A DNA stretch of 47,839 nucleotides from NCBI GenBank assembly GCA_905182215.1, contig CAJJAI010000009.1:1-47839 (forward strand), read 5' to 3'. Below the pieces are notes generated by a model that saw only the letters and a program-made list of their open reading frames with translations, had not been told where the DNA came from and did no database searches. The position numbers were made by a program, and so were the translations under genes. Shown here piece after piece: positions 6,471-35,363 of the stretch (position 1 is its first letter; each line of letters starts with the position of its first letter). Source of the stretch: Flavobacteriales bacterium UBA6772. GTDB taxonomy: Bacteria > Bacteroidota > Bacteroidia > Flavobacteriales > UBA7430.

Positions 6471-8018
6471 ATGACACCTTTTAAATGCCTTTTTTTTACT
6501 TTTATGAGTGCCTGTTTTCTATGGCAATGTGCTACAATGCATAGCCCTTCTGGCGGAGAGAAAGATGTTTTTGCTCCGACAGTTCTGAGTACTATACCAA
6601 ATCAAGGCGCAACAAATGTTAGCCCTACAATTATAGAAATTCATTTTGATGAGTACTTTAAATTAAATAACCTTCAGAATGAGTTACTCATCTCACCTCC
6701 CTTAGAAATAAAGCCTTTGATTTCTCAAAAGGGAAAAAGCCTATTCATAGAATTACAAGAATCGCTTAACGAAAACAGCACCTATACCTTCAATTTCGGA
6801 AAAGGTATTGCCGATTTTCACGAAGGGAACGTACTCAAAGACTTTACTTTAGTATTTAGTACTGGAAACGAATTGGATTCTCTTACGATAAGTGGGAAGC
6901 TTAACGCTTGCCTGAATAATAACTTGCCTGAGAATGTAATTGTTGGGATTTATCAAAAAAACAGATTGAACAAAGACTCTACTATTTACCAGCAAAAACC
7001 AAATTATTTTGGTTTAACAAACGAAATGGGTGAGTACAAAATTGAGAACATTAAAAATGGCGATTATGAATTGATTGCTTTTGAAGATGTAAATACAAAT
7101 TACCTATACGATGGAGCTTCAGAGCAAATTGCTTTTTGCGATAGTCTAATTACTATCGGAGATAGTACAGTAGTAGATATATGGCTGTTTAAGGAAGAAA
7201 TGGAAGTAAAACTTCTAGAAGCTAGAGCAAAAGAAAACGGTAGAATCCACTGGACTTACAACAAAGAAATTGACTCTTTAAAAATTCATTCTAACACCAA
7301 TACTGAGTTTTACTCCAAAATTAAAGGAGACAGTCTTTTGATTTGGCCTAAGTACAGTGTAGACTCATTTTATATATGGACAGAAATTGACTCGCGTTTA
7401 GACTCTGTTTTAGTAAAAAACGATTCTCTAAAAACACAGCAACTAAATTTAACTTTAGAGAGTAAATACTTAAAAGCTACATCTAATTTAGTGCTACAAT
7501 CTGACGCTCCAATTATTGGAATCGACACAACGAAAATAGATTTATTTATAGACTCCGTTCAAGTGGATTATTCTATTATTTATTCTGACTTTAATCTAGA
7601 GCTTGAATTTCTACACGTAGGAGCAAGCAACTATAATTTAATCCTACAAAAAGGAGCCGTTTTAAGCACATATAGCAATCTAAACGACAGTACACACTTT
7701 ACTTTCTACACGAAAGCTGAAAGCGCCTTAGCTGGCTTATATATAAACGTAAGTTCAAGCTATAAAAACTTTTATATAGAATTGCTTAAAGATGATAAAT
7801 TACTCGAAACCCGTACATCTGTAGAAGAACTGAAATTTACGAATCTATTACCTACCAAGTACCAAGTAAGACTGGTGATAGATTGTAATTTAGATGGAAA
7901 ATGGACTCCCGGAAGTTATTTCGAAAACAAACAGCCCGAACAAGTAATTTACTACGACAAAGAAATAAACTTAAGAGCCAATTGGGAATTGGAAATAGAT
8001 TTCAATCCAACAAATTGA
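6471..8018 (+). CDS. Ig-like domain lipoprotein (SbsA-type Ig domain)
   Basis: A 515-residue envelope protein. The N-terminus is a lipoprotein signal with a probable lipidated Cys at C20 (FLWQC). It is followed by an SbsA-like bacterial Ig domain (about 35-130), recognisable from PTVLSTIPNQGATNVSPT and the STYTFNFGKGIAD stretch. The middle contains a segment like a carboxypeptidase regulatory beta-sandwich (GEYKIENIKNGDYELIAFED, about 187-206). Such proteins are common in Bacteroidetes and their function is largely unknown. The 3' end overlaps the convergent GDPD gene by 17 bp. Confidence 0.82.
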   Translation: MTPFKCLFFTFMSACFLWQCATMHSPSGGEKDVFAPTVLSTIPNQGATNVSPTIIEIHFDEYFKLNNLQNELLISPPLEIKPLISQKGKSLFIELQESLNENSTYTFNFGKGIADFHEGNVLKDFTLVFSTGNELDSLTISGKLNACLNNNLPENVIVGIYQKNRLNKDSTIYQQKPNYFGLTNEMGEYKIENIKNGDYELIAFEDVNTNYLYDGASEQIAFCDSLITIGDSTVVDIWLFKEEMEVKLLEARAKENGRIHWTYNKEIDSLKIHSNTNTEFYSKIKGDSLLIWPKYSVDSFYIWTEIDSRLDSVLVKNDSLKTQQLNLTLESKYLKATSNLVLQSDAPIIGIDTTKIDLFIDSVQVDYSIIYSDFNLELEFLHVGASNYNLILQKGAVLSTYSNLNDSTHFTFYTKAESALAGLYINVSSSYKNFYIELLKDDKLLETRTSVEELKFTNLLPTKYQVRLVIDCNLDGKWTPGSYFENKQPEQVIYYDKEINLRANWELEIDFNPTN

Positions 8019-8814
8019 GCAAGTGAGACAACTTATCTGCCTGAATACAATCTGGACTTTTTAGAATTGCCTCTTTATTTCTTGAGCGTGTATGTACATT
8101 CCACAAGCTAACCCATAAGCCATTACTGTGCGCAAGCTCCACTTCGTCTGCAGTAATTTTATCCGTAGCAATGCTTAAACCATGAAAACCATTCACTAGA
8201 GCAACCTCTAAGCCTGCCTCAAAATTAGTGGGATAATATAACAGTTGTGAACTTGGGCTTTTATCTTTAAAAAGCGCTAGGAATTGAGCGTCTTGAGACT
8301 CTATAAAACAATTGGATCCTAAGTCTTCTGTTAAATTACTAAGAGCGCTTGAGTACTCCTCAAAATAGGCCTCCATATCTTCTTCATCTGTATAAAGCTT
8401 GCAGTCGAAACTAAATATCAATTCACTATACGCTTCAATAATTTCAGAGACTAACATCAATCTATAATTTGATATTATATTGTAATCTGTATAACAAACA
8501 TTTGCCAAATCCTCCCAATTAGCACTTCTAATCAAACCAGAACCACAACTACTTTCAGTAAGATTTTCATCGTGATAAGCTACCAGATATCCATCTTTTG
8601 TAAGCTGTACATCTAACTCGGTTCCATCTGAACCTGTATCAACACATCTCTCTATAGATTCTAAAGAATTCATGGGTAACAAGCTATGTATTCCCATTCC
8701 AGCATGTCCTAAAACCTGAATTTCATCATTGTTTAAATTCTCGATTTGAAATGAAAACTTTTCACAAGAAGAAAAAATTAGGATACATAAAGTGAAAAAT
8801 AAAAACCGCTTCAT
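8002..8814 (-). CDS. Glycerophosphodiester phosphodiesterase family lipoprotein
   Basis: GDPD enzymes hydrolyse glycerophosphodiesters to glycerol-3-phosphate and an alcohol. The protein has a lipoprotein signal (FSSC, C17), so it is probably anchored in the envelope. The domain signature is present as GHAGMG (H37), TELDVQLTKDG with E66 and D68, and YHDENL with H81. The usual His-Arg pair of the active site is His-Ala here, and the later ELK-type motif is altered to FDCKLY. Activity should therefore be treated with care. It is the second gene after the nitrilase-family gene, 1 nt apart. Confidence 0.8.
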   Translation of the reverse strand: MKRFLFFTLCILIFSSCEKFSFQIENLNNDEIQVLGHAGMGIHSLLPMNSLESIERCVDTGSDGTELDVQLTKDGYLVAYHDENLTESSCGSGLIRSANWEDLANVCYTDYNIISNYRLMLVSEIIEAYSELIFSFDCKLYTDEEDMEAYFEEYSSALSNLTEDLGSNCFIESQDAQFLALFKDKSPSSQLLYYPTNFEAGLEVALVNGFHGLSIATDKITADEVELAHSNGLWVSLWNVHTRSRNKEAILKSPDCIQADKLSHLLNLLD

Positions 8815-8815
8815 A

Positions 8816-9592
8816 TTAGTATGTTAATTCGAATAAATCGCGGTCTTCTACGAAGGGAAAACGCTTTCGGAAATCATCTAAATGCTTTTTTGACAGGGCA
8901 AATTCTACCCAACCCACTTCATTTTCTGGAGCAGTGGCTATTACATCACCCATCGGATCTAAGACCTGAGAATGGCCAGAATACGAAGCTTTATAACCAT
9001 CTACACCAACTCTATTTACCCCAATTGTATACGCCTGATTTTCTACAGCTCTGGCTTGTAATAATATATCCCAAGCGGCAATTCTTTTGCTAGGCCAATT
9101 GGCTATATAGAAACACAAATCGTAGTTCACATCGTTTCTAGAAAAAACTGGAAAGCGTAAATCGTAACAGATTAGTGGGCAAATTCGCCAGCCTTTATAC
9201 TCTATAATTAATCTTTTTGTTCCTGCAGTAAAATGTTTTTGTTCGTTTATTAAACTAAACAAATGTCTTTTATCGTAAGTTTTAATTAGTCCGCTAGGCT
9301 CTACCCATACTAAGCGATTGTAAATATTTCCGGCTTCATTTATCATGAGAGAACCACAAATAACAGTCTGTTGTTTAATAGCCATTTCTTTCATCCATGC
9401 CACAGTCTCACCATCCATAGACTCTGCCAAATGAGTTGCTTCTACAGAAAAACCGGTTGTAAACATCTCGGGTAGCAGAATGATGTCGGCTGTTTTAACC
9501 GAGGCAAAATATAGTTCTATTTTATTCCTGTTTTTTAATGGATACTCCCAAGTTATATCAAATTGAAGTAAGGCTATTTTTAAATTTTCCAT
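8816..9592 (-). CDS. Nitrilase-family amidohydrolase, omega-amidase (YafV/Nit2) type
   Basis: Carbon-nitrogen hydrolase of 258 residues. The Glu-Lys-Cys triad is E42 (LLPEMFTTGFS), K108 (TYDKRHLFS) and C142 (PLICYDLRFP). The pattern resembles YafV/Nit2 omega-amidases, which hydrolyse alpha-ketoglutaramate or alpha-ketosuccinamate formed by transaminases and in methionine salvage. The protein is cytoplasmic. It is the first gene of a two-gene unit with the GDPD lipoprotein, though no functional link is evident. Family call firm; substrate inferred. Confidence 0.88.
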   Translation of the reverse strand: MENLKIALLQFDITWEYPLKNRNKIELYFASVKTADIILLPEMFTTGFSVEATHLAESMDGETVAWMKEMAIKQQTVICGSLMINEAGNIYNRLVWVEPSGLIKTYDKRHLFSLINEQKHFTAGTKRLIIEYKGWRICPLICYDLRFPVFSRNDVNYDLCFYIANWPSKRIAAWDILLQARAVENQAYTIGVNRVGVDGYKASYSGHSQVLDPMGDVIATAPENEVGWVEFALSKKHLDDFRKRFPFVEDRDLFELTY

Positions 9593-30941: not shown

Positions 30942-31496
30942 ATGTTACGTCATTTAAAGAACTTAATTAAAGGTAAAAAGTCAGAAACAATATCCGATAT
31001 TAGTATCAATACTGATGAAAATACTCCTTCGTATCTCTTGAATTATGAATACTTTAGTCTAGCCTGTGGTAGGAAACACCGAGGATACTTTATTGACCCA
31101 GTGCAAGGCTCATTTATTGAATATCAAAACCCAAAAGATTGGATATTTTTTTCATCATCAGAAGAATATAGTACTAACGTCTTTTGGGGCTATGAAACTG
31201 ATGGGCTTATCAAAAGAAAGGGCTTACTCAAAAATATAACTAATTCAAAAAAGAGAACTGTGGAGCCTATTATTACTAACATCAATTTAGGTAAAATCAT
31301 AAAAGACCTTGATGAATCGGGGTTTGACCATTTGGGTGGTGGTTGTGATATGGGTATTATTTCTTATTCAATTTTAATATACAATCCTATAAAAGATGAG
31401 TATAGAAGAAATATTCTTAAAACTGAAGGTGATAAAGATTTGACAAGTAAATCATCATTTACATCAGAACTATTAAGCTATTTTATATATACATAA
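30942..31496 (+). CDS. Hypothetical orphan protein
   Basis: A 184-residue protein I do not recognise. It has no signal peptide and no membrane segment. The N-terminus is Lys-rich (MLRHLKNLIKGKKSE). The middle has an aromatic-rich part (SPSYLLNYEYF-like, SSEEYSTNVFWGYETDG) and a Gly-rich DHLGGGCDMGIISYS stretch near 135-150. No Bacteroidetes -7 element was found directly upstream. Both flanks hold inverted repeats (30887-30922 and 31503-31528). It looks like recently acquired accessory DNA. Confidence 0.6.
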   Translation: MLRHLKNLIKGKKSETISDISINTDENTPSYLLNYEYFSLACGRKHRGYFIDPVQGSFIEYQNPKDWIFFSSSEEYSTNVFWGYETDGLIKRKGLLKNITNSKKRTVEPIITNINLGKIIKDLDESGFDHLGGGCDMGIISYSILIYNPIKDEYRRNILKTEGDKDLTSKSSFTSELLSYFIYT

Positions 31497-31580: not shown

Positions 31581-32981
31581 CTACGAGTTAGATTCTACCA
31601 TAGTAGTTGATAATACTGGATTCTTTTCTACGAAATCTTCTAGTACTTTAAAGAAATTTAAAATATCCTGTTTCGTATTCGTAGCATTTATGGTTACCAA
31701 TCTAATAAAGGTGTCTTCGTTAAAGGAGCCAAATCCAACAACAGTAATTTGATGCTCATAGAGTGCAGTACAAAGTGCGGTAGGGTCTATATTCTTATAA
31801 TTAAAACAGATAGAGATTGAATCATCAAAACTGTATAAGGTATAATCGCTATTGTTTCTTACGTATTCTCTAGCAACATCAGCTAAATTAAATTGTTGAT
31901 CTACAATGCCTTGAAGTCCATTTGTTCCAACAGACTTCCATAATGTCCAGAATTTTAAGGCATCATTTCTTCTTCCACATTGAAAGGAAGTTTTACCTAG
32001 ATTAAAATCGTCCCCATCTGTTTGGTATAGATAATCTGCATCATTACTAAACGAATCATGCAAGTGTTTTTTGTCCTTCACCAAAATAACAGAACAAGTC
32101 ATGGGAGTCCCAATCATTTTATGCGCATTATAGCTGAATGAATCTGAACGGGAAATTCCATTTACCAGGTGCTTATATTCATCACTAAAAATTACACTTC
32201 CACAGTAAGCTCCATCTACATGCAGCCAAACTTTATATTTTTCAGTTATGTCTGCAATTTCATCAATTGGATCAAAAGCACCCAATACAGTAGTCCCAGC
32301 AGTTGCGTTTACATAAGTTGGAATAAAGCCATTACTTAGATCTTCAATAATTTGTTCTTCCAGTTTAGATGGAATCATTTGCCCTCTTGAATCTGCCTGA
32401 ATATATCGGATATTGTTTCTTCCAATTCCGGCAAAACTAACATTCTTAGCATTCGAATAATGCGATTCTTTAGAGGTATAAACAACCAATGGTTTAGAGA
32501 TTCCTTCTGTTTTACACAGAGGATCCTTAGCGTCTCTCGCCATTACTAAGGCCATATAATTACTCATAGATCCACCAGTAGGGAATGTACCGTTACTTTG
32601 AGAACCGTAACCAATAAGCTCACACGATTGTCTGATAATTTCTTGTTCAATTCCAACTTGCGGACCTGCTACCTTGTAGGTATACATACTGTTATTAAGC
32701 ATCACAGCAAGTAAATCGCCCAAGACGGCCTTGCTTTGTCTACCGCCAAAAAGTTGATTAAAGAATAATTTAGTAGCGGTTTTAGGAGTAGAAATAAGTA
32801 CGTCTTTAAGTACTTGCTTAAACTCCTGGTCTACCATAGCACCATCATTTAAGGAAAGGTCTATAGAATCGTAAAGCGCATTAGCCTCTATTCTATCGGC
32901 TACAGGATGTTTTTTTTCTTCGTTTAGTAAGACTTCAACTAATTCGTTAAACAACCCTAAATCACTATTTATATCAGACAT
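31581..32981 (-). CDS. Group II PLP decarboxylase, probable cysteine sulfinate decarboxylase
   Basis: A 466-residue PLP-dependent decarboxylase. The PLP lysine is K288 in SYNAHKMIG, the Asp contacting the pyridine N is D256 in HVDGAY, and the stacking His is H174 in SKESHYS. The segment SFQCGRRNDALKFWTLWK (332-349) closely resembles animal cysteine sulfinate and glutamate decarboxylases. Alternative substrates are glutamate, aspartate or cysteate. The decisive context is the cysteine dioxygenase 15 bp upstream, whose product is cysteine sulfinate; decarboxylation would give hypotaurine. Confidence 0.85.
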   Translation of the reverse strand: MSDINSDLGLFNELVEVLLNEEKKHPVADRIEANALYDSIDLSLNDGAMVDQEFKQVLKDVLISTPKTATKLFFNQLFGGRQSKAVLGDLLAVMLNNSMYTYKVAGPQVGIEQEIIRQSCELIGYGSQSNGTFPTGGSMSNYMALVMARDAKDPLCKTEGISKPLVVYTSKESHYSNAKNVSFAGIGRNNIRYIQADSRGQMIPSKLEEQIIEDLSNGFIPTYVNATAGTTVLGAFDPIDEIADITEKYKVWLHVDGAYCGSVIFSDEYKHLVNGISRSDSFSYNAHKMIGTPMTCSVILVKDKKHLHDSFSNDADYLYQTDGDDFNLGKTSFQCGRRNDALKFWTLWKSVGTNGLQGIVDQQFNLADVAREYVRNNSDYTLYSFDDSISICFNYKNIDPTALCTALYEHQITVVGFGSFNEDTFIRLVTINATNTKQDILNFFKVLEDFVEKNPVLSTTMVESNS

Positions 32982-32996
32982 GTAATTTTACTTATT

Positions 32997-33545
32997 TTAA
33001 ATTTTATACGAAGTAGCAGTGGTATTATAACTCATAGATCTAGGCACAAACTTACCCAAGGCTGCATCGAATGCGTTGCAAGTACGAATTGGTTTTGCAT
33101 AAAGGTGCAAAGACATACTTCTAGTATTAGATCGATTTTCTAAACTGTGGAATCCCATAAAATCGATCATATAAGTTACCTCTCCAACACTTGAGTCCAT
33201 TGAATCAATAGTGTCCAATTTACCTACAGCATCTACTTTATAAATCGTTTCTCTAAATTCACCCTGAACAACTTTCACCCAACATTCTTCGCCACCATGA
33301 TCGTGTATGGGCGTAATTTGCCCTGGCTCCCAACAAAGCAAGATCAGTTCAAATTTCTCAGTATTAATAATACAATTTCGGGTATACAAATCTTTAGACC
33401 AAGAACAGTATGCTTCAAAAGCACTGCTAGGAATTTTTATAGAACGGATTATGTCGTTAAAGGTCGTCCTCTCCCCTTCTGAAAGAGCAGAAATTAAATC
33501 GTCTAATGAATGAAGTGTACGTGAATTTTCGGGATTTGAATTCAA
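32997..33545 (-). CDS. Cysteine dioxygenase type I
   Basis: Oxidises cysteine to cysteine sulfinate with O2 at a non-heme iron. The 182 residues carry the three-His iron site H81 and H83 (PIHDHGGEECW) and H133 (GFHSLEN). The carboxylate-binding Arg is R56 (YTRN). C88 and Y149 (SLHLYAKPI) align with the Cys93-Tyr157 cofactor pair of the mammalian enzyme. Translation starts at TTG (33545-33543); an in-frame TAG lies just upstream and no ATG is available. It heads an operon with the decarboxylase and has a -7 element about 100 nt upstream. Confidence 0.93.
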   Translation of the reverse strand: MNSNPENSRTLHSLDDLISALSEGERTTFNDIIRSIKIPSSAFEAYCSWSKDLYTRNCIINTEKFELILLCWEPGQITPIHDHGGEECWVKVVQGEFRETIYKVDAVGKLDTIDSMDSSVGEVTYMIDFMGFHSLENRSNTRSMSLHLYAKPIRTCNAFDAALGKFVPRSMSYNTTATSYKI

Positions 33546-33648
33546 AATGGTCTATCGCTTTTCTTTGTTCATAAAATGTACAAATCCAAGGGTTATGCCC
33601 TAAATTCAACACATAATTCCGATGTTTTTACCGAAATTATTGGAGTAG

Positions 33649-33656
33649 CAAATATA
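33649..33656 (-). promoter_or_regulatory. -7 element of the cysteine dioxygenase operon
   Basis: On the minus strand this is TATATTTG, a perfect TAnnTTTG match. It gives a leader of roughly 95-100 nt before the TTG start. No -33 TTTG was seen. Confidence 0.5.
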
Positions 33657-33701
33657 GTGATTTTTATACGTTTTTGAAGTGTTTTATATAGATTTATAGA
33701 T

Positions 33702-33716
33702 AATATGAATCATATT
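33702..33716. promoter_or_regulatory. 15-bp palindrome between divergent dioxygenase and symporter genes
   Basis: AATATGA, one central A, then TCATATT: a perfect palindrome with 7-bp arms. It lies 46 bp upstream of the dioxygenase -7 element and about 100 bp before the symporter ATG. It is a candidate operator serving both directions. In AT-rich DNA, chance is not excluded. Confidence 0.4.
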
Positions 33717-33818
33717 TCAGTTTTTTTACGCATTTTGTACGCTCTTATAAATTCAGTAAACATTGAGTTTAAGGCTATAAACATCAATAATTGCCCCTAA
33801 TCACAAACTATATTTTTT

Positions 33819-35363
33819 ATGATAGATCAAGAATTCTTAATCAAGGTTTCGGTACTAGCGATATACGTTGGTGTCTTATTTTTAATTGGAATACTAGCCT
33901 CTCGTAAAATAAAAGGCATGAGCGATTATTATGTAGGCGGAAAAAATATGGGATTCTGGGCAGTCGCCTTTTCTGCAAGAGCTACAGGAGAGTCTGGCTG
34001 GTTACTTATAGGCTTAACAGGAATGGGTGCCATAGCGGGATACTCGAGCTATTGGGTAGTAATAGGTGAGCTTTTAGGGGTTTTTATCTCCTGGCAGTTT
34101 ATGGCCAAACGATTTAAAAGACGATCTGATAAATACGGTGCGATTACGATACCCGATTACCTACAAAGCCATTTTAAATCTACAAACCACACACTCAGAA
34201 TTATTTCTGCATCCATCCTAGTTCTATTTATTGTAATTTATGTAGCCTCACAAATTGATGTAACCGGAGTTGCATTTAACTCTATGCTTGGAATTGATTA
34301 TAAAGTTGGTGCATTAATAGGCTTTATAATTGTGATTACTTACATCTTTATTGGTGGCTTTGTGGCGGCTGTTTGGTCCGATTTATTTCAAGGGCTTCTT
34401 ATGTTTTTTGGGCTTGTATTACTCCCTATAGTCGTTTGGTTTTCTATGGATCATGGTACTGGTATTACAGAAGGACTTAAAGCCATAGACCCAAGCCTAA
34501 TACAAATAATGGGTAGAAGCGACGATGCGTGGATGAACCTATTTACAGTTTTAGGTTTCTCAATGATTGGACTAGGCTTTCTTGGTTCGCCGCAAGTATA
34601 TGTTCGGTTTATGTCTATAAAGAGCGAAAAAGAAATAGGGAAAGGGAAATGGGTAGCTGTAATTTTCACGCTACTTACCGATGCTGCAGCAGTAACTATT
34701 GGAATATTAGCCCGTATTTACTTCACAAAAGAAGGACAAGATCCAGAAGCGATACTAGGAAACAATGGTCAAGATGTACTGAGTATGGTAACCGAAAGTT
34801 TCTTGCCTACATTACTGGTCGCCTTGTTTGTTGCAATTGTTTTATCTGCAATTATGTCTACCATAGATTCTCTATTAATACTTGCCTCAAGTGCTATAAC
34901 ACGCGACTTCTATCAGAAAATATTTAAACCTCACTTGAAAGATTCGGAACTCACAAAAATATCTAGAATTTCTACTGTTATAATGGCATTTACGGCTTTA
35001 ATAATTGCTATGATAATGAATTATGTATCACCCGACAGACAAATATTTTGGGTTATAATTTTTGGGTGGTCGGGAATTGCAGCTACTTTTTGTCCGGTAA
35101 TTATTCTCACTCTTTTTTGGAAAGGGTATTCTGAAGTGGGTGCCATTGCATCAATGATCTCTGGATTTATATCTGTTATTTTGTTCAATTTTGTATTTAA
35201 AGAAATGGCGAATATTGGTGAATACTTAGTCGCACTTGATGTGCTCGCACCCTCATTTGCAGTTGCAATGATTGTTGGTGTATTGGTCTCTAAAATGTAC
35301 CCTCCAAGAGCAGAAGCTATAAAAATGATTACAGAAATTGATGAAGACTCCGAAGAGAACTAA
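33819..35363 (+). CDS. Sodium:solute symporter (SSS family, PutP-like)
   Basis: A 514-residue membrane protein with about 13 hydrophobic segments and a charged C-tail. Features of the SSS family are DYYVGGKNMGFWAVAFSARA, ESGWLLIGLTG (PutP-like sodium site region), GAITIPDYLQ and the AIVLSAIMSTIDSLLILASS helix (read in parts). The substrate cannot be read directly; proline, taurine/hypotaurine or another small osmolyte are possible. It is divergent from the cysteine dioxygenase operon with a 273-bp shared gap, suggesting coordinated regulation. Confidence 0.88.
   Translation: MIDQEFLIKVSVLAIYVGVLFLIGILASRKIKGMSDYYVGGKNMGFWAVAFSARATGESGWLLIGLTGMGAIAGYSSYWVVIGELLGVFISWQFMAKRFKRRSDKYGAITIPDYLQSHFKSTNHTLRIISASILVLFIVIYVASQIDVTGVAFNSMLGIDYKVGALIGFIIVITYIFIGGFVAAVWSDLFQGLLMFFGLVLLPIVVWFSMDHGTGITEGLKAIDPSLIQIMGRSDDAWMNLFTVLGFSMIGLGFLGSPQVYVRFMSIKSEKEIGKGKWVAVIFTLLTDAAAVTIGILARIYFTKEGQDPEAILGNNGQDVLSMVTESFLPTLLVALFVAIVLSAIMSTIDSLLILASSAITRDFYQKIFKPHLKDSELTKISRISTVIMAFTALIIAMIMNYVSPDRQIFWVIIFGWSGIAATFCPVIILTLFWKGYSEVGAIASMISGFISVILFNFVFKEMANIGEYLVALDVLAPSFAVAMIVGVLVSKMYPPRAEAIKMITEIDEDSEEN

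Follow-up and report, generated by a model that had tools for sequence, protein, structure and literature searches.

A conserved operon of cysteine dioxygenase and a predicted cysteine sulfinate decarboxylase, with a divergent SSF symporter, in marine Flavobacteriales

Organisation and conservation of the locus

The window analysed here, a stretch of 47,839 nucleotides, corresponds to contig C9 in an incomplete assembly (62 contigs, 1.26 Mb, 62% complete). Among named genomes it is closest to those of Flavobacteriales bacteria, UBA6772 being one. Three open reading frames occupy positions 31581–35363. An earlier note on this DNA had placed a dioxygenase and a decarboxylase 15 bp apart on one strand, with a sodium symporter diverging across 273 bp. 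We found the same coordinates for the enzyme pair, on the minus strand, and an SSF-family frame on the plus strand beyond a gap of exactly that length; the sequence motifs named there (HDHGGEEC, SLHLY and QCGRRNDALKFW) are all present. The Pfam scores of the three proteins lie far over the cut-offs. The features of the locus are as follows.

31581–32981, minus strand: PLP-dependent decarboxylase, predicted CSAD; 466 aa; PF00282 Pyridoxal_deC, 5.8e-74
32997–33545, minus strand: cysteine dioxygenase (CDO) of the Arg type with a Cys93/Tyr157 pair; 182 aa, TTG start; PF05995 CDO_I, 6.1e-25
33558–33610, minus strand: conserved 52-nt cis element in the CDO 5' leader; model R1, 65 bits
33649–33656, minus strand: TATATTTG, which fits the TAnnTTTG pattern of Bacteroidota promoters, read from the sequence
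33819–35363, plus strand: SSF sodium symporter, PutP-like, with a changed substrate pocket; 514 aa; PF00474 SSF, 5.6e-77

The start of the CDO gene is ambiguous, and an in-frame ATG 27 bp upstream runs into a stop codon (MNKEKR, then stop). The reading frame upstream of CDO varies inconsistently across relatives, and a leader peptide encoded there was ruled out because the frame is not conserved. Downstream of the operon lie a plus-strand frame without a Pfam or NCBIfam match (30942–31496) and a minus-strand putative cyclase (PF04199; 29914–30756), which is not found beside the cassettes of relatives.

Conservation of the layout was examined in the best 80 of 409 candidate loci from named Bacteroidota genomes, which are thus close relatives by selection. 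In this sample CDO adjoins the decarboxylase in 74/80 loci, a divergent SSF gene is present in 56/80 and both occur together in 54/80, while six loci have the decarboxylase without an adjacent CDO and 24 have no adjacent SSF gene. The three-gene layout is thus conserved in relatives, and the frequencies of CDO adjacency and of the divergent symporter argue that it does not reflect chance. Clustering of neighbouring families at the relatives' loci revealed no other family with similar conservation; the next-largest clusters consisted mostly of antisense reading frames. The hosts include Flavobacteriaceae, Crocinitomicaceae, Saprospiraceae and Cyclobacteriaceae. A second clade, at 57–60% identity, has the same three families in another order, with CDO divergent and the SSF gene directly downstream of the decarboxylase (for example L094, L096, L100, L103 and L105).

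Individual loci depart from these patterns. CDO is absent between the SSF gene and the decarboxylase in L035 (303–1171) and L037 (284–1152), where the spacer length and the leader element are retained. In L036, which lacks the SSF gene, a frame resembling SulP-family anion transporters (7635–9260) lies just upstream of CDO, and related frames occur in five other loci.

The two enzymes and their predicted substrates

The top PDB matches of the decarboxylase are mouse CSAD (1.1e-81) and human CSAD (5.7e-81), followed by GADL1 and GAD67. The PLP lysine, Lys288, is conserved in 110/110 decarboxylase relatives, as the PLP fold of CSAD requires. CSAD is told from glutamate decarboxylase by an F-x19-S-x-Y motif; mutagenesis has demonstrated that this motif affects cysteine sulfinate turnover, and its last Tyr was reported to be crucial for substrate binding (PMC4754659). 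The window enzyme carries the motif exactly, spacing included, as F78, S98 and Y100. At these three selectivity positions mouse CSAD has F/S/Y, GADL1 has Y/S/Y and GAD67 has S/N/F. A glutamate decarboxylase yielding GABA would share the fold and family of the window enzyme, and the GAD67 match is itself strong (1.8e-75). However, the F/S/Y residues, in place of the S/N/F of GAD, and the linkage to CDO in 74 of the best 80 of 409 loci both speak against glutamate; we consider this reading extremely improbable and regard it as ruled out by the motif residues.

The best PDB match of the window CDO is rat/human CDO1 (3e-21). Equivalents of His86, His88, His140, Arg60, Cys93, His155, Tyr157 and Cys164 are kept in essentially all of 85 relatives. 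The three iron histidines, Arg60 and the Ser-His-Tyr residues of Arg-type CDOs are present, Ser153 being replaced by Thr in 16/85 relatives. Since both the Cys and the Tyr of the Cys93–Tyr157 pair occur in 85/85, these proteins are predicted to be able to form the animal-type crosslink. The position of Cys93 is occupied by Gly in the Bacillus subtilis CDO and by Cys in a Vibrio CDO, so this trait is not restricted to animals and Bacteroidota. CDO is rare, being present in 9 of 396 sampled Bacteroidota genomes, and a plasmid search recovered distant bacterial CDOs only. Separately, four f8 genomes encode second CDO-like cupins (L122–L125) in which HDF or HNF replaces the HDH of CDO, and whose iron site looks altered.

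Taken together, the substrate-motif residues, the CDO active-site residues, the conserved adjacency and a separate panD that argues against aspartate (see below) suggest that the cassette converts cysteine to hypotaurine, a reading to which we assign a probability of about 0.85. CDO would oxidise cysteine with O2, and the decarboxylase would release CO2 from the resulting cysteine sulfinate to form hypotaurine; the earlier note had joined the two reactions in this way, and these sequence features agree with it. We infer the two activities and the hypotaurine product from properties that can be read directly in the genomes, namely protein families, residues, gene adjacency and the separate PanD. 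Hypotaurine may then oxidise to taurine, enzymatically or non-enzymatically. Searches of the motif-bearing genomes turned up neither TauD nor a true Xsc, nor an FMO-like enzyme that recurs consistently: FMO-like matches were weak and confined to part of these genomes, and matches to the Xsc model all fell far under its cut-off and occurred in control genomes too. A dedicated hypotaurine oxidase was thus not found, in keeping with the absence of such an enzyme from the window recorded earlier.

CSAD accepts cysteate as well (PMC8153620), and the decarboxylase occurs without CDO in some genomes; cysteate could therefore be the main substrate and be converted directly to taurine, if the CDO product were oxidised first or cysteate were made elsewhere. 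CDO itself forms the sulfinate, though, and is adjacent in most loci, which makes this alternative improbable. Among complete motif-bearing genomes, CDO is absent altogether from three (G184, G162 and G096), where another source of cysteine sulfinate or cysteate may exist.

Aspartate deserves closer attention. Human CSAD slowly decarboxylates it (PMC8153620), and a nested subclade of the decarboxylase family probably supplies beta-alanine, so the window enzyme might be an aspartate 1-decarboxylase feeding beta-alanine to coenzyme A, with CDO as an accidental neighbour for cysteine disposal. We surveyed panD and panC in 26 genomes. The window's genome has its own panC and panD (G000:C4), unlike what is expected where a decarboxylase substitutes for PanD, and panD is also present in 12/12 complete F/S/Y-type genomes. 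In contrast, panD is absent from 12/12 genomes of family f12, which still carry panC; among the F/S/Y-type and f12 genomes surveyed, the incomplete G006 alone yielded no panC. The f12 enzymes that were examined, which represent part of the f12 genomes in the survey, have Ala in place of the motif Tyr in all cases but one (L088); the Ala-bearing decarboxylases are L087, L089, L092, L093, L097–L099, L101, L102, L104 and L106–L110. In the tree the f12 clade sits inside the F/S/Y enzymes, and the window enzyme, which retains the Tyr, lies outside it. Because the motif Tyr is mostly lost, panD is absent and panC is kept, the f12 decarboxylases have probably turned into a beta-alanine source replacing PanD; as these genomes all belong to one family, they represent one evolutionary event and not twelve independent ones. 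For the window enzyme, the panD/panC distribution and the motif residues rule out the aspartate reading, which we hold to be very improbable, and favour cysteine sulfinate.

The earlier note had also called both enzymes animal-like. Their best PDB matches and the Cys93/Tyr157 pair bear this out, but the decarboxylase tree does not place the window enzyme among its animal counterparts: it falls in a separate bacterial clade beside animal CSAD/GADL1/GAD and is not nested there. Recent transfer from animals is accordingly unsupported by this tree, and the CDO tree is unresolved and too weak to judge. Within the bacterial clade the host groups Flavobacteriaceae, Crocinitomicaceae, Saprospiraceae and Cyclobacteriaceae are intermixed, which suggests that the cassette may have spread by horizontal transfer.

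The divergent symporter and the conserved leader element

The closest NCBIfam model to the symporter is that of the Na+/proline symporter PutP (TIGR02121), against which it scores 351.7 bits; the cut-off is 515.5, so the protein does not qualify as a PutP equivalog. Identity to E. coli PutP is 31% over 487 columns, and the sodium-site residues Ala53, Ser57, Ser340 and Thr341 are kept, as in the SSF family. The substrate pocket is different: Trp244, a proline-site residue of PutP, is Ile in 61/61 symporters, and Asp55 and Met56 are Gly and Glu, respectively, in 60/60. An SSF orthologue (at least 57% identity) is present in 9/12 complete motif-bearing genomes versus 1/21 others (p=5e-5, a value that ignores relatedness), and it co-occurs with the pathway even where unlinked (G039, G184 and G237). 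The neighbours of the unlinked copies gave no clue to the substrate, and a literature search for an SSF transporter of hypotaurine found nothing among the papers available. We know of no SSF member whose substrate is hypotaurine or taurine.

These observations bear on a proposal that the symporter serves for uptake. Its link to the pathway is borne out by co-inheritance. As a weaker inference, the divergent SSF protein may be a sodium-coupled carrier of hypotaurine, taurine or a similar solute, in one direction or the other. The symporter might instead import proline or another osmolyte and share with the operon just its osmotic control, as the match to the PutP model and the conserved sodium site would allow. 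A deficit of more than 160 bits to the PutP cut-off, the replacements of Trp244, Asp55 and Met56, and the co-occurrence with the pathway of unlinked copies count against proline, leaving it as a possible but doubtful explanation.

In most relatives a TAnnTTTG site precedes the start of CDO by about 85–119 nt, and the interval between it and the start contains a conserved stretch with the consensus GTTGGATTTAGGGAnTGACCTTGGATTTGTACATTAAATGAACAAA. Two hairpins can be drawn; over all 34 aligned leaders, helix 1 is paired in 92.4% and helix 2 in 87.4% of cells. Covariation in this alignment is modestly above that of shuffled controls, 42/500 and 35/500 shuffles attaining the observed score. When 25 leaders were recounted with the combined structure, 95.5% of cells were paired and 0/500 shuffles attained the double-change cells and score; this set, the 34 minus nine divergent or near-duplicate rows, and its structure were picked after seeing the data, and the fairer test is provided by the counts over all 34 rows. 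A model built from the 25 leaders locates the element where expected in 48/81 sources (E<0.01, training rows included), among them the non-training loci L028, L056, L014, L065 and L059. In L035, L037 and L082, which lack CDO, it also matches ahead of the decarboxylase, at 35–40 bits. The element was not found in the rearranged clade at 57–60% identity. Rfam gave no match at gathering score in the window, and relaxing the limit to E = 1 gave none in 33500–33830 either. Two further matches of the model, inside a ClpC-like coding gene (G034) and before a secreted-protein gene (G006), were read as probable chance.

The element is a candidate structured RNA or DNA operator. TTGGATTT is present twice, about 21 bp apart, and since GGATTT self-pairs through G-U, a direct repeat could mimic helix 1; helix 2 is nearly palindromic and would do just as well as an operator. 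Whatever its form, the conserved leader may control the operon. A bolder scheme, a self-regulated hypotaurine/taurine unit with a metabolite-sensing two-hairpin RNA, an SSF protein for hypotaurine/taurine and a Tyr-less side branch replacing PanD, seems to us speculative and rather unlikely.

Relation to known pathways and implications

The core of this pathway is not new: CDO–CSAD taurine synthesis in bacteria was already published in 2013. Agnello et al. are said to have described operon linkage of CDO and CSAD in bacteria in that work. Two later papers cite Agnello 2013: one reports a taurine route in bacteria and the expression of a Synechococcus CSAD (PMC8153620), and the other lists marine flavobacteria for the route (PMC12585060). 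The prokaryotic pathway (Agnello et al. 2013; Synechococcus sp. PCC 7335) resembles the present cassette in its two reactions and in the F-x19-S-x-Y motif. The animal CSAD/CDO1 pathway, the more familiar setting of this route, is alike in motif residues, the Cys93–Tyr157 pair and reaction order; unlike it, the bacterial decarboxylases form a clade of their own and the genes form an operon. Apparently new are the conserved symporter without Trp244 and the 52-nt CDO leader element.

Little has been mapped of the bacteria that supply taurine, an important marine organosulfur compound. In sea water the cassette may produce or salvage a sulfur-containing osmolyte or antioxidant. It is common in marine Flavobacteriales and extends to Saprospiraceae and Cyclobacteriaceae, which raises the possibility that these abundant bacteria are producers. 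The symporter and the leader element offer direct handles on transport and control, and the Tyr-less subclade provides a natural test case for the shift of a decarboxylase from a role in sulfur metabolism to one in CoA metabolism.
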